From: Flavobacteriaceae bacterium
GTDB taxonomy: Bacteria; Bacteroidota; Bacteroidia; Flavobacteriales; Flavobacteriaceae
Direction: 5' to 3'
Assembly (NCBI GenBank): GCA_947483075.1
Contig: CANKLE010000004.1
Coordinates: 1-64,000 of the forward strand
DNA length: 64,000 bases
Shown here: piece by piece, positions 27,088 through 60,070 of the stretch
Numbering within the stretch: the first letter of the stretch is position 1
Layout: every line of letters begins with the position of its first letter
Translations under genes and position numbers: made by a program
Notes under the pieces: generated by a model
Seen by the model: the letters and a program-made list of their open reading frames with translations, nothing else
The model's database searches: none
Told to the model about the DNA's origin: nothing

Positions 27088-27175
27088 GGGGCGTGCCCAC
27101 AAGGGTCAGGCTATCCGTTTTTATCTTTTTTCGCTGCCGCTCCAAAAGGATAACCACTGCTATCCTTCACGCAAA
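27088..27175. repeat. Dispersed hairpin element A
   Basis: A structured non-coding block. GCGTG (27091-27095) pairs with CACGC (27168-27172) as a closing stem; inside, ATCTTTTT pairs with AAAAGGAT, and alternatively AGGATA (27147-27152) pairs with TATCCT (27161-27166). The wording (GGGCGTGCCC, GGGTCAGGCTATCC, ending CACGCAAAAC) resembles a non-coding repeat I remember from intergenic regions of many flavobacterial genomes. The function is unknown. It shares a core with the element at 59938. Confidence 0.65.
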
Positions 27176-27279
27176 ACTGGAGGCAATGAACAGGAATTTA
27201 AATGCATTCTAAAATAGCCCCGACTATCATTTGGTGTAATTTTTAGTTTAAATTTGATACCCAATAAAACACCTTTCTC

Positions 27280-37461: not shown

Positions 37462-37485
37462 AAAACTAAATTGTTGAATAGTTTT
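37462..37485. promoter_or_regulatory. Inverted repeat upstream of the carotenoid operon
   Basis: AAAACTA (37462-37468) and TAGTTTT (37479-37485), a perfect 7-base inverted repeat with a 10-base spacer, lie about 34 bases before the -7 box of the regulator gene. It could be an operator, for example for the CarH-like protein, but the arms are AT-rich and the evidence is weak. Confidence 0.3.
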
Positions 37486-37518
37486 CAAAATAAAAAACTT
37501 GAGCAAGCAATTTTTGTG

Positions 37519-37526
37519 TATTTTTG
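37519..37526 (+). promoter_or_regulatory. Carotenoid operon promoter (-7 box)
   Basis: TATTTTTG matches TAnnTTTG; transcription would start near 37533. This excludes an upstream start codon at 37524 for the regulator and supports the ATG at 37548. Confidence 0.65.
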
Positions 37527-37547
37527 TTTAGCTTTTTAAAAAAATAT

Positions 37548-38444
37548 ATGAACAATATTAAAAACGTTTTTAGTATAAAAGATTTAGAAAATCTGTCGGG
37601 CATCAAAGCGCATACCATACGTATATGGGAAAAACGTTATGCAGTTTTAGAGCCCATGCGCACCGAAACCAATATTCGCTTGTATGACCTCGCAAGTTTA
37701 CAAAAGCTACTCAACATTACTTTGCTGCACAATCACGGCTATAAAATATCCAAGATTTCAAAATTTCCAACCGATAAAATCCCCCAATTGGTTAGTGAAA
37801 TTGTCTCCTCAAAAAGCGCTAAAAATCACGCCATTAGCTCGTTCAAAATGGCCATGATGAATTTTGACCATAGTTTATTTTTCAATACCTACAACAAACT
37901 CTTGGCCGAAAAATCCTTTCGGGAAGTGTTTTATGAAGTGTTTATTCCACTCATGGGCGAGCTGGGTTTATTGTGGCAGACCAACACCATTACTCCTGCT
38001 CACGAACACTTTATCAGCTACCTCATCAAACAAAAATTATTGATCAATACAGAAAAAGTACAAGTGGCACAACCCACGCGTACCGACAAAGTATTCGTCT
38101 TGTATTTGCCGCTCAACGAGGTGCACGAATTGGGCATTATGTACCTGAACTACGAAATATTAGCTGCCGGATATAAAACAATCTATTTGGGAGAAAGTGT
38201 GCCCACAGATAGTTTGAAGGATGTAAAAAAATACTTTGACAACATCGTTTTTGTTTCCTACATGACCGTGCAGCCCGACAAGGACCACATCAATTCCTAC
38301 ATCAAAGAAATCAAAAAAGAACTAATCGACGAGACTACCGAATTGTGGTGCATCGGACGCATGGTAGAACACATTGAGTATACTAATTTCACGAGCTCAA
38401 TCAAGAAATTCGAATCTATTTTTGATCTGGTAAACGAAATCTAG
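37548..38444 (+). CDS. CarH/LitR-like MerR regulator with cobalamin-binding domain
   Basis: A 298-residue regulator. Residues 8-75 form a MerR winged helix (FSIKDLENLSGIKAHTIRIW, NIRLYDLASLQKL). Residues 90-170 are a four-helix bundle with the Wx9EH motif of B12 photoreceptors: Trp 143, Glu 153, His 154. Residues 180-298 are a Rossmann-like cobalamin domain with ExHxxG (Glu 191, His 193), where the His would be the lower cobalt ligand. The residue after the Trp is Gln 144, where Thermus CarH has the His that binds cobalt after light exposure. The later SxL and GG parts of the B12 signature are weak (VSYM, CIGRM). In CarH, adenosylcobalamin in the dark makes a DNA-binding tetramer that represses carotenoid genes and light breaks it. 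The stop lies 5 bases before crtI, so it heads its own target operon and is probably autoregulated. Confidence 0.88.
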   Translation: MNNIKNVFSIKDLENLSGIKAHTIRIWEKRYAVLEPMRTETNIRLYDLASLQKLLNITLLHNHGYKISKISKFPTDKIPQLVSEIVSSKSAKNHAISSFKMAMMNFDHSLFFNTYNKLLAEKSFREVFYEVFIPLMGELGLLWQTNTITPAHEHFISYLIKQKLLINTEKVQVAQPTRTDKVFVLYLPLNEVHELGIMYLNYEILAAGYKTIYLGESVPTDSLKDVKKYFDNIVFVSYMTVQPDKDHINSYIKEIKKELIDETTELWCIGRMVEHIEYTNFTSSIKKFESIFDLVNEI

Positions 38445-38449
38445 GCCGA

Positions 38450-39910
38450 ATGAAAAAAAACATCGCTATTATAGGATCTGGATTTTCAGCTCTGTCGGCT
38501 TCCTGTTATCTGGCTCAGGCGGGACACCAAGTAACCCTATACGAAAAAAATGAAACCATAGGCGGACGCGCTCGTCAACTTAAACGAGACGGCTTTACCT
38601 TTGATATTGGCCCAACCTGGTATTGGATGCCCGATGTCTTTGAACGTTTTTTTGCCGATTTTAACAAAAAACCAAGTGATTACTACAGTTTAGAAAAACT
38701 TTCTCCTGCTTATCAGGTGTATTTTGGCATACATGATTTTGTAACCATTTCTGATAACCTTGAGTCAATTTGCGACACTTTTGAAAGCATAGAACCAGGC
38801 AGTGCGCAAGAATTAAGAAAATTTATGGCGGAGGCAAAATCCAATTACGACATCGCCATCAAAGATTTGGTCTACAATCCGGGAGTTTCTCCGATGGAAT
38901 TAATTACGCTAGAAACTGCCAAAAAAGTGGGGCAATTTTTTAGCAACATTCGCCGAGATGTGCGCAAGCGATTCAAGCACACCAAATTGATACAAATTTT
39001 GGAATTTCCTGTTTTGTTTTTGGGTGCCAAACCCTCAGACACCCCCTCTTTTTATAGCTTTATGAATTACGCCGATTTTGGCTTGGGCACCTGGCATCCT
39101 AAAAATGGAATGTACAGCGTGATTTTGGCCATGGAATCGTTGGCCAAATCATTGGGCGTAACGATTCAAACCTCGGCCAATGTATCCAAAATTGAAGTAG
39201 CCGATAAAAAAGCGACTGGACTTGTGGTAAACGGAGCGTTTATATCAGCCGATGTCGTTTTGAGTGGCGCCGATTACCATCATTCAGAAACCTTATTGGA
39301 TGAAAATAATCGAGGGTATTCCGAAAAATTCTGGTCCAAGCAAACCTTTGCACCTTCCTCACTTCTATTTTATGTGGGAATTGATAAAAAAGTAGCAAAT
39401 GTAGAACATCATTCTTTGTTTTTTGATGTCGATTTTGATGCACACGCACACAGCATCTACGATGATCCAAAATGGCCCGAAAACCCATTATTTTACGCAA
39501 GCTTTCCTTCTAAAACCGATGAAAATTCTGCCCCTGCAGGCAAAGAAGCGGCCATTTTTTTAATTCCGTTAGCACCCGGATTAGAAGACACTGAGGTGTT
39601 GCGTGAAACTTATTTTGAAAAAATACTGACGCGTTTAGAATTACTAACCGGTCAAGAATTAAAAAATAATATTATATTTAAAAATTCTTTTTGTGTAACT
39701 GATTTTATTACGGAATACAATTCCTATAAAGGGAATGCTTATGGATTGGCCAATACATTGTTGCAAACCGCTTTTTTACGTCCAAAATTAAAAAGCAAAA
39801 AGGTGCAAAATTTATATTTCACCGGTCAATTGACAGTGCCTGGTCCTGGAGTCCCTCCTGCCTTGATTTCTGGAAAATTAGTAGCTGAATTGATCGAAAA
39901 AAATTGTTAA
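38450..39910 (+). CDS. crtI: Phytoene desaturase
   Basis: Converts colourless phytoene to lycopene by successive desaturations, using FAD. The 486 residues begin with the dinucleotide-binding motif IIGSGFSALSASCYLAQAG and the conserved IGGRARQL. GPTWYWMPDVFERFF follows, and the C-terminal carotenoid oxidase signature GAYFTGQ-like segment is seen as LYFTGQLTVPGPGVPPALISG. It starts 5 bases after the regulator and ends 20 bases before crtB. Confidence 0.95.
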   Translation: MKKNIAIIGSGFSALSASCYLAQAGHQVTLYEKNETIGGRARQLKRDGFTFDIGPTWYWMPDVFERFFADFNKKPSDYYSLEKLSPAYQVYFGIHDFVTISDNLESICDTFESIEPGSAQELRKFMAEAKSNYDIAIKDLVYNPGVSPMELITLETAKKVGQFFSNIRRDVRKRFKHTKLIQILEFPVLFLGAKPSDTPSFYSFMNYADFGLGTWHPKNGMYSVILAMESLAKSLGVTIQTSANVSKIEVADKKATGLVVNGAFISADVVLSGADYHHSETLLDENNRGYSEKFWSKQTFAPSSLLFYVGIDKKVANVEHHSLFFDVDFDAHAHSIYDDPKWPENPLFYASFPSKTDENSAPAGKEAAIFLIPLAPGLEDTEVLRETYFEKILTRLELLTGQELKNNIIFKNSFCVTDFITEYNSYKGNAYGLANTLLQTAFLRPKLKSKKVQNLYFTGQLTVPGPGVPPALISGKLVAELIEKNC

Positions 39911-39930
39911 ACTAAGATTTTCCCCCTTTT

Positions 39931-40770
39931 ATGAAATCTATTTTTGATACCCTTTCTTTTGAATGCAGCAAAAGAGTTACCCAAACCTACAGCACCTCCT
40001 TTTCCTCGGCGGTAAAAATGTTGGCGCCAAGTATTCGTCAGGATATCTATAATATTTATGGATTTGTTCGTTTTGCTGATGAGATTGTAGATAGTTTTCA
40101 CGATTACCCTAAAGCAACCTTATTTGAACTTTTTGAAATCGATTTGGCCAATGCCTTAACGCATAAAATCAGTTTAAACCCCATCTTAAATGCCTTTCAA
40201 CATACGGTTCACCAATACAATATTCCGCACGAATTGATTGCTGCCTTTATGAAAAGCATGAAGTTAGACCTATCAAAAACAGTCTACGAAACCGAAGAAG
40301 AATACCAAGATTACATTTATGGATCTGCCGATGTGGTGGGTTTAATGTGCCTAAAAGTATTTGTAAAGGGCGATCTTGCGGCCTACGACCAACTCAAAGA
40401 TAGCGCCATGCGTTTGGGATCGGCTTTTCAGAAAGTAAATTTCTTGCGGGACTTGAAAGACGACCACGAAGTATTGAGCCGAACCTATTTCCCAAATACC
40501 GATTTGAATCGCTTAGACGAGCAAGCCAAAGCCAAAATTATCAAAGAAATTGAAGCTGATTTTGCTGCGGGCTACGAAGGGATAATAAACCTGCCGTTTG
40601 AAGCCAAGTTTGGGGTGTATACGGCCTTTATTTACTATAAAAAATTACTTCATAAATTGAATAAAACGCCTTCAGCCGAACTCAAAAATACCCGTATTCG
40701 GGTGTCCGATTACCAAAAAATTGGGCTGTTTGCGCGTTGTTATTTTACCTATAAATTAAACATCATTTAA
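39931..40770 (+). CDS. crtB: Phytoene synthase
   Basis: Joins two geranylgeranyl diphosphates into phytoene, the first committed step of carotenoid synthesis. The 279 residues contain the first Asp-rich motif in RFADEIVDSF (about 47-56), YGSADVVGLMCLKVF, and the second in VNFLRDLKDDHE. The N-terminus SKRVTQTYSTSFSSAVKML is typical. It is the third gene of the operon, 3 bases before crtZ. Confidence 0.95.
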   Translation: MKSIFDTLSFECSKRVTQTYSTSFSSAVKMLAPSIRQDIYNIYGFVRFADEIVDSFHDYPKATLFELFEIDLANALTHKISLNPILNAFQHTVHQYNIPHELIAAFMKSMKLDLSKTVYETEEEYQDYIYGSADVVGLMCLKVFVKGDLAAYDQLKDSAMRLGSAFQKVNFLRDLKDDHEVLSRTYFPNTDLNRLDEQAKAKIIKEIEADFAAGYEGIINLPFEAKFGVYTAFIYYKKLLHKLNKTPSAELKNTRIRVSDYQKIGLFARCYFTYKLNII

Positions 40771-40773
40771 GTT

Positions 40774-41217
40774 ATGTTACTCTATCTTGCTGTATTCTTG
40801 ATCACTTTTTTTTGTATGGAATTTATGGCTTGGTTTAGCCACAAATACATCATGCACGGTTTTTTGTGGGTATTGCATGCCGATCACCACAAGAAAGACC
40901 ACGATTCGTGGTTTGAGCGCAACGATGCTTTTTTTATTTTTTATGCGGTGGTGAGTATGGGATTTTTTGTGTTGTGGCAACAACATATTTTAGATGTTGG
41001 CTTAGCTATAGGCTTGGGCATTTTTGCCTACGGCTGGACTTATTTTTTGGTGCATGACATTTTTATTCACCAACGCTTCAAATTGTTTAGAAATGCAAAT
41101 GGCAAATACGCCAAAGCCGTGCGCAGAGCACATAAAATGCACCACAAACACGTCGGTAAAGAACAGGGAGAATGTTTTGGAATGTTGTGGGTTCCAATGA
41201 AGTACTTTAAAAACTAA
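40774..41217 (+). CDS. crtZ: Beta-carotene hydroxylase, CrtZ type
   Basis: A 147-residue membrane di-iron hydroxylase that adds 3-hydroxyl groups to beta-ionone rings, giving zeaxanthin from beta-carotene. All four His clusters are present: HKYIMH, HADHH, HDIFIH and HKMHH. Three or four hydrophobic segments are seen. It is the last gene of the operon. Its substrate needs a lycopene cyclase (crtY), which is not in the window. Confidence 0.93.
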   Translation: MLLYLAVFLITFFCMEFMAWFSHKYIMHGFLWVLHADHHKKDHDSWFERNDAFFIFYAVVSMGFFVLWQQHILDVGLAIGLGIFAYGWTYFLVHDIFIHQRFKLFRNANGKYAKAVRRAHKMHHKHVGKEQGECFGMLWVPMKYFKN

Positions 41218-41867: not shown

Positions 41868-43805
41868 TTAAAACGAAATGCTACAGCCCAGTTTGTAATT
41901 TCTTCCTTTGGTATTGTAGCCCACCACTTCTTGAAAATTGGCATTGAAAAGGTTGGTGATGTAGCCAAAAATTTGTACCCGTTTGGGCAACACATCCCAA
42001 GCTATCGTAGAATTAAACACCTGATAAGCGGGCAATTTCACTATGGCTGATTCCGAAATATTAGAATCATAATAAGCGTCGGTGCGAGGATCTACATATT
42101 GATATGTGAACCCTACAGAACCTTTTTTAAACTGATAAGAAAGATCCATATTCACTTTATGTTTGGGTATTAATCGATTGAGCTGCTCTTGCACCTGAGT
42201 ATAGGTGTAATTGGTTCCAAAATTCCAGTTATTTGATAAGGCATAACGCAAACTTCCCTCAATTCCTTTGGCATGAAAGACACCAAGCCAGTTTTTGTAG
42301 TACGACTCAAAAGTAACCGCATCGGTATAAAAATCAATGACATTGCATTCTTCCCGATAAAAACCAACGCCTTTAATGCTGAGTTTCTTGGCGAATACTC
42401 GGGCTTCGAAACCCAATTCGGTGGTGGAGTTTTTTTCGGGAGTCAATTGTAAGTTTCCATACGGACCATACAACTGGTACAAGCTGGGCGTGATAAAAGC
42501 GGTACTTTGAGAGGCCAATATTTTGAGTGGAAGCTGAGCAAAAACATAACTGGGATTTAAGTTATAGACAACTTGATTTCCGTAGGCGCTGTGTGTATTG
42601 ATTCGAGTTCCGGCATTGATATTCAATCCAAAATCAGAATTGTAAACTACGGTAGCATACGGATCGAGTAAAATAAATTTAGAATCTTCGTGGTGCACAT
42701 CGGTATATAAATCTTTTTGAGCCATGTCCAAAAACTGGTATTGCACTCCCGACACCACAAACAATTGACTGGAGATTTTGTGTTTAGAAAACAAATCGAA
42801 GGAGGCCGTCCTGCCCGCGTACTGGTATTTCTCGACGGTTGAACTGAAGGTGTCGGTTTGCCAAATGGTTCTGTTTATCGAGGAGAGTCCGGCATTCAAA
42901 ACAAATTCACCAAAGGTATTTGTGTATTTTGATTCCAATCCGAGGCGGTATTGCTCAGAAAAACTAGCGTTATTCAAATCATCGGCGTTGGTGAGTGTTC
43001 CGTCAAACGAATTGTCAAAGGTGTTTTTGATGCGGTCGTAATTTCCAAACAAATCAAATCGAAACCGATCTGACGCCTTCAAACCCAGTTTTTGCATCAC
43101 ATTGATACGAGAGAATAAATCGGCTTCGGCAGGATTTGCTGCGGCCTCACTCATGCCTCTAGTTTCAGTGCTGTTTACAGAAGTTAAGTAATTTACTTTA
43201 TGAATTGTTCCATTAACCGAAACACCTTGGCTAAATTCTTGCCCCGCTATTCTTGCCGTTTGGGCGGTATTTTGGGTGCCTATATTGCTGTATACATTTC
43301 CTGCCATCGTCTTTGGGCTGGATTTTTTTAAGGTGATCGAAATCACGCCGGTGGCCGCCCCGGTTCCGTATAAGGTACTTGAAGCTCCTTTCATGACCTC
43401 GATTTTTTCGATTTGATCGATCGAGATGAGCCGCAAATCGTATACTAAATTGATCCCGGAAGCATCGGTTGCAGGAATACCGTCTATATAGATTGCCGTT
43501 TGCTGATTTCGCCCGCCACGAATGTAATAGCCCAAATTTTTACCCGCAAAAGATTGATTTCCATTAATCTCTACTCCGGCCAACTGGCTGAGTACATTGG
43601 CCACTGATTGTCCTTGCTTTTTGGCTAAATCTTGGGCCGTTAGCACCTCAATGATTTTACCTGATTTTTGACTATTCAATTCAAATTTTGTATCAGAAAC
43701 CACTACTTCTTTAAGTTGGGTTGTAGACAAGGTATCTTGTGCTTGCGCATACAAAAGAGGTGAAGCCAATGCATAGAAACACAGGCAAATAATTACTTTG
43801 TTCAT
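41868..43805 (-). CDS. btuB: TonB-dependent receptor, probable cobalamin receptor
   Basis: A 645-residue outer-membrane receptor, similar in length to E. coli BtuB (about 600). It has a signal peptide (ending LYAQAQ), a TonB-box region (STTQLKEVVVSD), a plug domain (about 45-160, with VLSQLAGVEING, GYYIRGGRNQQTAIYIDGIP and KIEVMKGASSTLYGTGAATGVISI) and a beta-barrel ending in an aromatic C-terminal strand (NYKLGCSISF). The gene lies behind a cobalamin riboswitch and is divergent from a B12-type ABC importer, so B12 or a related corrinoid is the likely ligand. Confidence 0.92.
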   Translation of the reverse strand: MNKVIICLCFYALASPLLYAQAQDTLSTTQLKEVVVSDTKFELNSQKSGKIIEVLTAQDLAKKQGQSVANVLSQLAGVEINGNQSFAGKNLGYYIRGGRNQQTAIYIDGIPATDASGINLVYDLRLISIDQIEKIEVMKGASSTLYGTGAATGVISITLKKSSPKTMAGNVYSNIGTQNTAQTARIAGQEFSQGVSVNGTIHKVNYLTSVNSTETRGMSEAAANPAEADLFSRINVMQKLGLKASDRFRFDLFGNYDRIKNTFDNSFDGTLTNADDLNNASFSEQYRLGLESKYTNTFGEFVLNAGLSSINRTIWQTDTFSSTVEKYQYAGRTASFDLFSKHKISSQLFVVSGVQYQFLDMAQKDLYTDVHHEDSKFILLDPYATVVYNSDFGLNINAGTRINTHSAYGNQVVYNLNPSYVFAQLPLKILASQSTAFITPSLYQLYGPYGNLQLTPEKNSTTELGFEARVFAKKLSIKGVGFYREECNVIDFYTDAVTFESYYKNWLGVFHAKGIEGSLRYALSNNWNFGTNYTYTQVQEQLNRLIPKHKVNMDLSYQFKKGSVGFTYQYVDPRTDAYYDSNISESAIVKLPAYQVFNSTIAWDVLPKRVQIFGYITNLFNANFQEVVGYNTKGRNYKLGCSISF

Positions 43806-43864
43806 TTAATTAGAGTACTAATTAATTCGATAAAAGGGAGAAAAGCACAGAACTTACCCATACT

Positions 43865-43888
43865 CAAACTTTTTTTCCCGAAAGTTTG
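43865..43888 (-). promoter_or_regulatory. Hairpin between riboswitch and btuB
   Basis: CAAACTTT (43865-43872) pairs with AAAGTTTG (43881-43888) directly after the riboswitch and shares its last base with the proposed riboswitch closing stem. It has no T run on the minus strand, so it may act as part of a switch in translation rather than as a terminator. Confidence 0.4.
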
Positions 43889-44112
43889 TTGCTCAACGAA
43901 TAGGGGCAGGTCTCCTGGCTTGCGTCTTGTTATCAACCTTCTCATTCGCCGCGGCGAACAATGGTATTGCAGTGTATAACAAGCTTTCTAGCTTACAGTT
44001 GCGGGAACAGCTTGGGATTTTTGATTTGCGATTTTAGATTGTTGTAAAATAAAACCAATAAATAAATCAATCACCCAATTCCCTTTTAATGCTTTGATAA
44101 CTCAAAAGCAAC
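43888..44112 (-). ncRNA. Cobalamin riboswitch
   Basis: On the minus strand it has the B12 box AAGCCAGGAGACCTGCC (43905-43921), the core AATCCCAAGCTGTTCCCGC followed by AACTGTAA, a CACTG segment, and the 5' GGGAAttGGGTG block (about 44072-44083). GTTGCT and AGCAAC (44107-44112 and 43888-43893) can close the P1 stem. The position is the 5' leader of btuB. It should lower receptor synthesis when adenosylcobalamin is plentiful. Confidence 0.92.
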
Positions 44113-44125
44113 CTCAATTCGAGGC

Positions 44126-44133
44126 CAAAGATA
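44126..44133 (-). promoter_or_regulatory. btuB promoter (-7 box)
   Basis: TATCTTTG on the minus strand; initiation near 44119 would start the RNA just before the riboswitch P1 strand. Confidence 0.6.
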
Positions 44134-44161
44134 CCGATTCATTGGCCAATAAAAAATATAA

Positions 44162-44194
44162 TTTGAAATTTAATTGGCATTCCTACTACCTTTG
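44162..44194 (+). promoter_or_regulatory. btuFCD promoter
   Basis: -33 TTTG (44162-44165), a 21-base spacer, and -7 TACCTTTG (44187-44194). Initiation near 44201 leaves a leader of about 12 bases, so this operon does not carry the riboswitch. It also excludes a start codon at 44174 for btuF. Confidence 0.65.
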
Positions 44195-44212
44195 CCCGGA
44201 AGAAATTTATCG

Positions 44213-45349
44213 ATGAAGTTTGTGTCTCCTTTTGTTTTACTCTTTTGTTGTGCCGCACTATTTGTGCAGTGCCAACAACATCAAGCTGCTAATAAAAAAT
44301 CAAACAAGCAATCAGAAGTGCGTTATGCCAAAGGCTTTTCAATACACACACAGCACAACTATTCTATTGTAACTATTCGGGATCCCTGGCCCAATGCTAC
44401 CCAAACCTACACCTATGTATTGGCAAAAAAAAATGCGGCTATTCCCGACAGCCTCAACTCCTACCCGCTTATTCATGTGCCTGTACGCAAATTGGTAGCC
44501 ACCTCAACTACGCACTTGCCTTCTCTCGATATGTTGGGCGAAAGCAATTCCTTGGTGGGGTTTCCCAATTTAAAGTACATCTCCTCTCCAAAAATAAGAG
44601 CCCGAATTGACCAAGGATTGGTAACCGAACTGGGAAACAACCAAAACATGAATACCGAGCTGTTACTTAATCTTCGACCCAATGTGATCATTGGCTATGG
44701 CATTGACAACAAAAATTCGGCACTCGATAAATTACAACAAAGCGGACTTCCTGTGTTACTCAATGGCGATTGGAACGAACAATCTCCCTTGGGCAAAGCC
44801 GAATGGATCAAATTATTTGGCGTGTTATTCTGCAAAGAAGCACAAGCCGAAAAAGTCTTTAAGGCGATCGAAAAATCGTATTTATCTACCGCAGCCTTGG
44901 TAAAAAAAAGCGCCCATAAGCCTACAGTGCTCTCCGGTGCCCTATACCAAGACCAGTGGTTTTTACCTCAAGGACAAAGTTGGGCAGCTCAATTTATAGA
45001 CGCAGCCGGCGGAACCTATTTATGGAAAGACAGCCCAGGAACTGGCAGCTTGTCTTTGCCGTTTGAAGCCGTTTATGAAAAAGCGGCCAACGCAAACTTT
45101 TGGATTGGTCCGGCGCAGTTCGGGTCCTACCAAGAAATGGAACAAAGCAGCTCTCATTATACTAAATTTGCTGCTTTTCGGCATAAAAAAATAACTACAT
45201 TTAGCAGTAAAAAAGGAAAAACAGGCGGATTAATTTATTACGAATTAGCCCCCAACCGACCCGATTTAGTGCTTCGGGATTTGGTAAAAATTTTACATCC
45301 TGAACTGCTGCCTTCCTACCAACTTTATTTTTTTGAACCGCTACGCTAA
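44213..45349 (+). CDS. btuF: B12-type ABC transporter substrate-binding lipoprotein
   Basis: A 378-residue binding protein of the BtuF/FhuD class. The start at 44213 (MKFVSPFVLLFCCAALF) follows the promoter and gives a lipoprotein signal with lipobox LFVQC. Two lobes are joined by a long helix: VRKLVATSTTHLPSLDMLGESNSLVGFPN and LLNLRPNVIIGYGID in the first, PTVLSGALYQDQWFLPQGQSWAAQFIDAAGG in the second. Such proteins also bind siderophores; B12 is favoured because of the neighbouring riboswitch. Its stop overlaps the btuC start by one base. Confidence 0.82.
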   Translation: MKFVSPFVLLFCCAALFVQCQQHQAANKKSNKQSEVRYAKGFSIHTQHNYSIVTIRDPWPNATQTYTYVLAKKNAAIPDSLNSYPLIHVPVRKLVATSTTHLPSLDMLGESNSLVGFPNLKYISSPKIRARIDQGLVTELGNNQNMNTELLLNLRPNVIIGYGIDNKNSALDKLQQSGLPVLLNGDWNEQSPLGKAEWIKLFGVLFCKEAQAEKVFKAIEKSYLSTAALVKKSAHKPTVLSGALYQDQWFLPQGQSWAAQFIDAAGGTYLWKDSPGTGSLSLPFEAVYEKAANANFWIGPAQFGSYQEMEQSSSHYTKFAAFRHKKITTFSSKKGKTGGLIYYELAPNRPDLVLRDLVKILHPELLPSYQLYFFEPLR

Positions 45350-46371
45350 TGCAAAAACCAAGAACTATACTCGGCCTATTTTTCCTGCTCACGCTGGCTG
45401 TTTTGCTGTTATTTCTATGGGATATTTCCTCGGGGGCAGTAGCTATTCCGATTCGTGATGTTTGGAATGGCTTAACCTCTACTTCCCACAACAGCAGCTG
45501 GGATTACATTGTTCTTGACTACCGTTTACCCAAAGCTATTACGGCAATTTTAGTTGGGATGGGACTTTCCGTAAGCGGGTTGTTGATGCAAACCTTATTT
45601 AGAAATCCATTGGCGGGTCCTTATGTGTTGGGCTTAAGTTCGGGATCGAGTTTGGGCGTGGCTTTTGTTCTCATGGGAGCAAGTCTTGTTCCGCCTCATT
45701 TGGCAATCTACTTGCAGTCGCCCTACAGCATCATTTTGGCTTCCTGTTTGGGAAGTTTATTGGTTTTACTGGCCGTATTACTTGTCGCGCAACGCCTGAA
45801 AGACACTATGTCTATCTTGGTTGTAGGACTTATGTTCGGAAGCTTTAGCAGTGCCTTAGTGGCCGTGTTGTCGTATTTGAGTTCGGCCGAAGCCTTGCAA
45901 CGATTTACCTTTTGGTCTTTGGGAAGTTTGGGGAATTTATCCTGGAATTCTATAGCAATCTTAGGCAGTTGTGTTGCGATTGGTTTACTGCTCAGTTTAG
46001 CTACGTTAAAAGCATTAAACGCTTTATTGCTCGGTGAAAATTACGCCAAAACCTTGGGTATTCGATATACTCAAACCAAGTACCTCGTGATTTTGGGAAC
46101 GGCAATATTGGCCGGAAGCATTACCGCCTATGTGGGGCCTATTGCCTTTATTGGGTTGGCTGTGCCACACATGGCTAAGCTTATTTTTCAAACGAGTCAA
46201 CACCAATTGCTTTTTGTGGCTACACTTTTACTTGGGGCTGCCGTTCTGCTGTTGTGCGATGTCCTCACTCAGCTGCCAGGGAGCGATATTTTCTTGCCCA
46301 TTAATGCCATAACCTCGCTGATTGGCGCGCCCATTGTGATCTATTTATTAGTCAAAAAACAACACCGCTAA
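45349..46371 (+). CDS. btuC: B12-type ABC transporter permease (FecCD family)
   Basis: A 340-residue permease with about ten membrane helices. Family motifs include DYRLPKAITAILVGMGLSVSGLLMQTLFRNPLAGPYVLGLSSGSSLGVA near the N-terminal half and GPIAFIGLAVPHMAK, the loop that contacts the ATPase. It overlaps its neighbours by one base on both sides, giving a tightly coupled btuF-btuC-btuD operon. A siderophore role is possible by family alone, but context favours B12. Confidence 0.88.
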   Translation: MQKPRTILGLFFLLTLAVLLLFLWDISSGAVAIPIRDVWNGLTSTSHNSSWDYIVLDYRLPKAITAILVGMGLSVSGLLMQTLFRNPLAGPYVLGLSSGSSLGVAFVLMGASLVPPHLAIYLQSPYSIILASCLGSLLVLLAVLLVAQRLKDTMSILVVGLMFGSFSSALVAVLSYLSSAEALQRFTFWSLGSLGNLSWNSIAILGSCVAIGLLLSLATLKALNALLLGENYAKTLGIRYTQTKYLVILGTAILAGSITAYVGPIAFIGLAVPHMAKLIFQTSQHQLLFVATLLLGAAVLLLCDVLTQLPGSDIFLPINAITSLIGAPIVIYLLVKKQHR

Positions 46372-47153
46372 TGGAGGAACATTTACTACACACCGTCAAT
46401 TTACAAGTAGGCTACCACACCAACGGAAAGCCTCATCCTCTTGCTTCTGGACTAGATTTAACCTTGCCAAAAGGACAGCTTATTGCGTTGGTAGGTCAAA
46501 ATGGTGTGGGTAAATCGAGTTTGTTGCGCACGATTTGTCAATTGCAAAAACCACTTCAGGGCGAAGTATTTCTGCTGGGGAAAAATGTTGAACGGTACGA
46601 TTCACAAGAATTGGCACAACAATTTAGTGTGGTTTTGACCGAAAAATTACCACCCAGCAACTTGACTGTTTGGGAATTAGTGGCATTAGGCCGACAACCC
46701 TATACAAACTGGATTGGGCAATTGACCAAAAAAGACCAACAAGCTATTGAACAAGCACTTACGGATACCGATCTAACTCACATTCAAAACCAAAAGCACT
46801 TTACCCTGAGTGACGGGCAATTGCAAAAAGCCTTGATCGCGCGTGCCTTGGCGCAGGAAACGCACCTAATTGTGCTCGACGAACCAACTACTCATCTGGA
46901 TTTAGTACACAAACTAAAATTGTTACAACTGCTCAAATCGGTTTGTGTATCTCAAGAAAAATGCGTGTTGTTTTCTACGCACGATATTGAATTGGCCTTA
47001 ACTATCTGTGACCAATTGATCGTAATGACACCCGAGCAGGTGAGGCAAGACAGTCCTGAAAACTTGGTCGCTTCGGGCATTTTTTCACGCTTATTTTCAG
47101 ACCAAACGTTTGGGTTTGATTCTACAACCAAAAAGTTCAGCTTTACGATATAG
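46371..47153 (+). CDS. btuD: B12-type ABC transporter ATPase
   Basis: A 260-residue ATPase that powers the importer. Walker A is GQNGVGKSS (about 42-50), the ABC signature reads LSDGQ instead of LSGGQ, Walker B with catalytic Glu is LIVLDEPTTHLD, and the switch His is in FSTHDIE. The odd signature residue is tolerated in other FecE/BtuD relatives. The 3' end overlaps the convergent trmL gene by 11 bases. Confidence 0.88.
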   Translation: MEEHLLHTVNLQVGYHTNGKPHPLASGLDLTLPKGQLIALVGQNGVGKSSLLRTICQLQKPLQGEVFLLGKNVERYDSQELAQQFSVVLTEKLPPSNLTVWELVALGRQPYTNWIGQLTKKDQQAIEQALTDTDLTHIQNQKHFTLSDGQLQKALIARALAQETHLIVLDEPTTHLDLVHKLKLLQLLKSVCVSQEKCVLFSTHDIELALTICDQLIVMTPEQVRQDSPENLVASGIFSRLFSDQTFGFDSTTKKFSFTI

Positions 47154-59904: not shown

Positions 59905-59937
59905 TGTATAGTAGTCGTTTAGTGTGTTGTATGTTGA

Positions 59938-60070
59938 TTAGCCCCGATGGTCCCGAAATTTCGGGAGAAAATCCTTTTTATTTTTTAATTCCAAATTTTG
60001 TTCTTTACTGCTCTTGGCTAAAAATAAAAAGATTGCAACGAACAGCGGGAAATAGCTTCAAAAAATTATT
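59938..60070. repeat. Dispersed hairpin element B
   Basis: A non-coding block in the carB-rpmH spacer that begins TTAGCCCCGATGG and ends CGGGAAATAGCTTC. It contains a perfect 16-base palindrome, TCCCGAAATTTCGGGA (59951-59966), and a long stem where ATCCTTTTTATTTTT pairs with AAAAATAAAAAGAT. The wording resembles an intergenic repeat I remember from other flavobacteria. On the minus strand it lies upstream of carB and shares the ATCTTTTT...AAAAGGAT core with element A at 27088. Confidence 0.65.

Follow-up and report, generated by a model that had tools for sequence, protein, structure and literature searches.

Within the window, i.e. the 64,000-nucleotide stretch of Flavobacteriaceae bacterium contig CANKLE010000004.1 (assembly GCA_947483075.1, positions 1 to 64,000) analyzed here, a gene for a MerR-family regulator is followed on the + strand by the carotenoid genes crtI, crtB and crtZ (37548-41217). 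Judged by its sequence and predicted structure, the regulator is a CarH/LitR-type protein, and we favor, as the probable reading, that it represses carotenoid and photolyase genes in the dark in an adenosylcobalamin (AdoCbl)-dependent manner and is released by light. Its likely operator, at 37524-37555 (arms 37524-37530 and 37549-37555), is the 32-bp inverted repeat TTGTTTA-N18-TGAACAA. Sequence supports the CarH fold, conservation of the pocket, the repeat itself and the set of genes sharing it; binding of the repeat by this protein is likely, as is control of the regulator by B12 and light, and we infer repression as the effect.

The regulator (37548-38444, + strand, 298 amino acids) was assigned from Pfam, a structure model, PDB matches and pocket conservation. 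Its start was taken as ATG 37548, the program-made list of open reading frames (ORFs) beginning at TTG 37524. Two Pfam domains are recognized, namely MerR_1 (52.1 bits, cut-off 21.6) on residues 8-72 and, on residues 99-164, the B12-binding_2 cap (38.5 bits, cut-off 23), and the best NCBIfam match is the CarH equivalog NF052513, with 65.5 bits being far below the cut-off of 400. The AlphaFold model (predicted local distance difference test, pLDDT, 89.4) has as its best structural match Thermus CarH with AdoCbl and DNA (5c8e; Z score 18.5 over 269 residues), with a whole-length root-mean-square deviation of 11.6 that is probably due to how the domains are oriented; taken by itself, the B12 domain yielded a Z of about 17-18 and ~2.5 A over ~196 residues. 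CarH chains were also top-ranked in Foldseek. The protein combines a MerR domain with a four-helix and Rossmann cobalamin domain, the Rossmann half coming from the model and not from PF02310.

A preliminary description, made from the letters alone, had called this protein a B12-photoreceptor-like regulator at the head of a carotenoid operon, and had placed the MerR domain, W143, E153, H154, E191 and H193 in one protein. All of these residues are present, with exact numbering when ATG 37548 is used, and the identity is upheld by conservation of the AdoCbl pocket residues and by a predicted fold that is CarH's. We compared 144 distinct close relatives including the window's own (group A; phmmer E < 1e-62), plus 39 others, with Thermus CarH as comparison. 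In group A, W143 and E153 of the Wx9EH motif were found in 144/144 and H154 in 143/144, along with E191, H193 and G140 (each 144/144) and P219 (141/144). Among 53 more diverse relatives, reaching down to 28% identity to the window protein, 21 columns remained invariant, including G140, W143, E153, H154, E191, H193 and G215. The recognition helix motif of CarH, RxWE(K/R)RY, is retained as well, with R, W, E, R and Y in all 144 group A members. The signature of light-responsive B12 domains consists of GxxW, EH, GxxH and GxxxP (PMC11796333, in excerpt), and three of these four elements are found in the window protein (G140/W143, E153-H154 and G215/P219). The cobalamin motif D/ExHx2G/P-SxT/V-GG is incomplete: E191, H193 and G196 are present, S237 is followed by M at the T/V place, and a single Gly remains.

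The repeat itself is strongly supported. Its consensus, TTGTTnA-N18-TnAACAA, overlaps both the regulator start codon and the -7 box of the operon promoter (37519-37526, + strand; TAnnTTTG, which we take to be the Bacteroidota-type -7 box consensus), and 37524-37555 is the only exact match in the window, with 0.03 expected. With TAnnTTTGTTnA, which 147 of 156 group A loci carry upstream, as the anchor for a second-arm search of group A upstream regions, TnAACAA recurred at a single offset in 81 of 101 non-redundant regions; the next commonest offset was seen in 2. Sorted by the distance between anchor and ATG, the second arm was present in 69/80 regions at 23 bases, in 12/13 at 20 bases and in 0/8 at other distances; because it is present at both the 23- and 20-base ATG distances, the position of the second arm follows that of arm 1, independently of the ATG. 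The Asn codon 2 within this arm is AAC in 109/110 vs. 939/2838 elsewhere in the same genes (Fisher 2e-49, uncorrected for kinship). At the regulator start of 143 distinct relatives, the repeat was exact in 114 and carried one mismatch in 18. Each arm contains TnnACA, the published CarH half-site (PMC9304148, in excerpt), in inverted and not tandem orientation. An operator of tandem 11-bp repeats (nnnnTnnACAn) was not found here, as the half-site is shared but the arms are inverted and 25 bp apart; Thermus-like tandem 11-bp direct repeats were seen in upstream regions as scattered cases only, judged by eye and uncounted. A sigma-70 promoter scan returned 8 promoters vs. 10.9 in shuffles and was uninformative. 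The preliminary description had proposed a different operator, AAAACTA-N10-TAGTTTT at 37462-37485; that repeat exists, as one of four short inverted repeats in a 112-bp stretch, but it lies upstream of 1/145 distinct related regulators, the window's own, and is rejected as the operator. Its suggestion of autoregulation fared better, being fitted by a conserved repeat that covers the regulator's own start codon.

The same site precedes other genes. In the bacterium's own genome we counted 7 exact sites vs. 1 for a mirrored control pattern: one precedes the crt operon, a second an operon in which genes for a polyketide-cyclase-like protein and a short-chain dehydrogenase accompany a photolyase gene, and a third the operon of TIGR03643, DUF2452, a flavin reductase and a DASH cryptochrome, with two further sites before a TIGR01777 oxidoreductase and an aldehyde dehydrogenase. 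Both PF00875 genes of this genome (two in total) are in operons behind a site. When six single-contig genomes of other genera with a group A regulator were added, the seven genomes together had 41 exact sites vs. 9 in the control, and their 12 photolyase clusters had a site close upstream in 5 cases (exact), 9 (up to one mismatch) or 10 (up to two). Across these 12 loci (160 kb), at up to one mismatch, the 18-base spacing gave 10 matches and none of 24 other spacings more than 1; the contrast was weaker at two mismatches, with 17 at spacing 18 vs. 1 to 11 elsewhere, and arms that were scrambled at spacing 18 yielded 4, 6 and 0 matches vs. these 17. From the shared sites we surmise that the same switch probably also governs photolyase and cryptochrome genes. 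The preliminary description had confined control to the crt operon, a scope that was too narrow, given the same site before both photolyase-family operons of this genome. Away from the regulator and crtI, the six added genomes have 26 exact sites, of which 3 stand in front of photolyase operons and 2 fall within genes. Separately, fasciclin-domain genes adjoin 6 of the 26 (L250, L253, L261, L265, L271 and L272) and are possible further targets.

Further copies lie near crtI and in more distant relatives. Between regulator and crtI, the exact repeat was found in 15/45 gaps of 15-39 bp and 35/68 gaps of 40-80 bp, as opposed to 0/5 gaps longer than 80 bp and 0/23 shorter than 15 bp; because the gap in the window is 5 bp, one copy presumably serves the whole operon there. 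In two (L211 and L212) of three genomes with regulator and crtI apart, the exact repeat is upstream of crtI. Of 24 loci from other Bacteroidota families, 10 carry the repeat with one mismatch at most, and by spacing these 24 loci hold 15 sites at 18, 11 matches at 19 and no more than 1 at any of the other spacings between 6 and 30. In such families a gene of 165-176 amino acids adjoins crtI on the regulator's side, and in six of the 10 loci with the repeat (L168, L169, L170, L172, L173 and L178) it precedes a gene of 165-170 amino acids; the two crtI-adjoining genes tested, L170:4074-4583 and L173:2483-2977, are ECF (extracytoplasmic function)-type sigma factors by NCBIfam, with the repeat upstream. 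More distant regulators, with E between about 1e-39 and 1e-45 (group B), have a changed repeat (N19, one arm about TTAGACA) over their start in 7 of 16 loci scanned.

Based on the above, we propose that, in the dark, the regulator with AdoCbl in its pocket would bind the repeat at 37524-37555, and that binding over the -7 box and its own start codon would shut off the regulator-crtI-crtB-crtZ operon. The regulator would likewise repress the photolyase and DASH-cryptochrome operons bearing the same site. Light would break the Co-C bond, the protein would come off the DNA, and carotenoid production and light-driven repair of DNA would start together. With respect to cofactor supply, a PduO-type adenosyltransferase gene (E 1e-60) is present in the genome, along with three B12-binding ORFs of 907, 710 and 1169 amino acids, which from their size are perhaps methionine synthase and two AdoCbl mutases. 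Group A regulators are present in 287/367 genomes with a PF01923 gene vs. 6/30 without, as read from the listings (Fisher 2e-10, uncorrected for kinship), a co-occurrence with adenosyltransferase that lends weak support, confounded by kinship and genome reduction.

Several results weigh against this proposal. On the protein side, the Rossmann half PF02310 had no match in the regulator even at a maximum E of 10; the position of H132 in CarH, the residue after the Trp, is Gln in 139/144 of group A; the first Gly of the Rossmann Gly-Gly (GG) pair is lost in 143/144, the second being kept in 143; and the GxxH element has become NxxH (NEVH in the window protein), with N in 127/144 and G in 8/144. 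On the DNA side, 2 of the 7 exact sites in the own genome are inside coding sequences, by eye secA and ftsQ, and one mismatch gave 46 sites vs. 41 in the control; because the latter count barely exceeds the control, only exact sites are read as regulon in this genome. Exact sites showed no excess over the control in genome G143 (3 vs. 4) and little in G157 (6 vs. 4), 2/12 photolyase clusters in the seven genomes had no site close upstream, and no repeat was found upstream of the unlinked crtI at L213 (genome G212). Among the six PF01923-less genomes with regulators, two of genus g65, 99 and 96% complete, are also without PF02572, and the pocket of their regulators (L112 and L113; genomes G064 and G280) looks intact; PF02310 matched a single ORF in G064 and had no match in G280. 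Because the regulator is kept there without a detected adenosyltransferase, genus g65 is the main fact against strict AdoCbl dependence. The reduced GG, the replaced H132, the unmatched PF02310 and the two g65 genomes would fit a B12-independent or retuned regulator, i.e. one that keeps the CarH fold without AdoCbl photolysis, or senses another cobalamin form or signal, with any light control residing elsewhere, for which Myxococcus CarA, working without B12, sets a precedent. However, CarA lost the Wx9EH Trp (PMC9304148, in excerpt), whereas that Trp is retained in 144/144 of group A here, with Trp, EH and the lower His in 143-144/144, and a response to light is known for SasPcob, which likewise has Gln in place of H132 (PMC11796333, in excerpt). 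We therefore view such a regulator as unlikely, albeit deserving of attention.

Other explanations concern the repeat and the direction of control. The repeat is found at several gene sets and a TetR-type gene (PF17931, L296) heads one photolyase cluster, such that another factor might bind the repeat, with the regulator merely one gene under it. We find this improbable, given that the repeat is placed over the start of this very regulator in 132/143 relatives at one mismatch or fewer, that its arms contain the CarH half-site, and that group B regulators carry their changed repeat over their own starts in 7 of 16 loci. Membership in the MerR family, in which many proteins activate or switch between activation and repression, would allow the regulator to be an activator or such a switch; this seems quite improbable, as the site covers the -7 box and start codon, where a bound protein would block transcription, and CarH is a repressor (PMC9304148, in excerpt). 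Lastly, since in the window and most relatives TAnnTTTG shares bases with arm 1 and the start codon with arm 2, the repeat might be an artefact of a promoter box and first codons, but we hardly credit this explanation: the 18-base spacing recurs without a start codon in regulator-crtI gaps, at unlinked crtI and at photolyase operons, where other spacings are not equally frequent; arm 2 keeps its distance from arm 1 when the ATG is at 20 and not 23 bases (12/13); and AAC is far more frequent at codon 2 than among the Asn codons elsewhere in these genes (109/110 vs. 939/2838).

A broader form of the proposal, in which a B12-dependent CarH-like switch governs a light-protection regulon throughout the Bacteroidota via a new type of 32-bp operator, strikes us as evenly balanced between right and wrong. 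This regulon would comprise carotenoids, photolyase, DASH cryptochrome and perhaps fasciclin-domain proteins, with arm 2 located within the regulator's first codons; in other families the site would precede a sigma gene near crtI, while in flavobacteria the operon would be directly under the switch. The regulator matched at E 0.001 in 325 of 397 Flavobacteriaceae genomes (293 close relatives, 27 group B and 5 weak, as read from the listing), and in a draw of Bacteroidota 196/296 genomes matched, many through the MerR domain alone. Some loci stood apart. At L071:6001-6894 and L074:6001-6894, crtI, crtB and crtZ are elsewhere in the genome and the regulator with its repeat remains in place; upstream of the distant crtI the repeat occurs as well. 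At L139 (genome G295) the regulator is truncated and has a stop codon, with the exact repeat still upstream and crtI downstream. Loci L005, L008, L053 and L074 come from assemblies named Sphingobacterium, Bifidobacterium breve, Ignavibacterium and Rhizobium, and have a flavobacterial regulator at 70-79% identity; these assemblies are probably misnamed or mixed bins.

As to the remaining genes of the operon, the coordinates agree with the preliminary description in that crtI begins 5 bases after the regulator (stop codon 38442-38444, crtI start 38450), followed by crtB and crtZ, and crtI is directly downstream of the regulator in 141/145 distinct relatives. The crtI gene (38450-39910, + strand), of the phytoene desaturase family, matched NCBIfam CrtID at 730.2 bits (cut-off 640), and crtB (39931-40770, + strand), a phytoene synthase, matched Pfam SQS_PSY at 153.5 bits (cut-off 26). 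The crtZ-like beta-carotene hydroxylase gene (40774-41217, + strand) had no match in Pfam or NCBIfam; of its eight best plasmid matches, which are 39-40% identical, one is annotated as beta-carotene hydroxylase and seven as sterol desaturase family, and because no family model matched, its identity is based on similarity to annotated hydroxylases and on gene order. A cobalamin riboswitch, RF00174 (43888-44131, - strand; 100.8 bits, gathering score 31.5), precedes a BtuB-like gene at 41868-43805; it is the only one found in the own genome and lies 2.7 kb beyond crtZ, outside the crt operon. Next to this operon is a B12-uptake-like locus (41868-47153), with the BtuB-like receptor behind the riboswitch and then BtuF/C/D-like genes. 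A BtuB-like gene is near the operon in 12/80 related loci (62/80 hold at least 12 kb), and 4 of these 12 have a cobalamin riboswitch, with several others ending inside or just past the gene; because shared descent can explain the adjacency, we keep this link as context only. Elsewhere in the window, two matches to Flavo-1 RNA (27100-27177 and 59936-60056) were barely over the gathering score.

Flavobacteriaceae are common in sunlit water, and, should the B12 light switch prove real, these bacteria would need vitamin B12 for their protection against light; the conserved site also gives a list of testable target genes. Kimura et al. (2011) reportedly described light-induced genes in a marine flavobacterium. 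Among the matches listed in a search of the open literature, with most subscription journals outside it, none dealt with a regulator or operator of this kind in Bacteroidota. In Chryseobacterium lacus a light-induced carotenoid cluster has been described, the regulation of which was called unknown (PMC7064467, in excerpt). MliR of Bizionia is MerR-like without a ligand domain (PMC9478572, in excerpt) and is therefore not this regulator.

Compared with known systems, the window regulator shares with Thermus thermophilus CarH (class I LitR) the domain order, predicted fold, Wx9EH, lower axial His, RxWE(K/R)RY helix and TnnACA half-site, as well as an association with genes for phytoene synthase and photolyase (from the gene order of pTT27), but the two proteins are about 18-20% identical, with Gln for H132 and one Gly for GG here, and the tandem 11-bp repeats of the Thermus operator are replaced by inverted arms 25 bp apart over the start codon. 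In the LitR system of Streptomyces coelicolor, an ECF sigma factor is said to direct the carotenoid genes; the likeness is to other Bacteroidota families, which have a sigma gene near regulator and crtI, and not to the window, where no sigma gene lies between the two. Repression of carotenoid genes, proposed here, is shared with Myxococcus xanthus CarA/CarH, and the proposed CarA site also has inverted repeats; unlike CarA, however, the window regulator keeps the Wx9EH Trp, and the 32-bp geometry is not described for CarA/CarH in the excerpted text of PMC9304148. Class II LitR of Pseudomonas (PplR, PmlR2) likewise has a regulon with photolyase and cryptochrome-like genes, but of the B12 domain it has retained just the four-helix half (PMC9758184, in excerpt), whereas the window protein has both halves in its model. 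CtMerR, among the best structural matches of our model (Z 18.0), and SasPcob both have light-responsive B12 domains without the H132 His, SasPcob having Gln as here; they differ from the window regulator in the use of biliverdin as well by SasPcob and in the divergent DNA-binding domain of CtMerR (PMC11796333, in excerpt).

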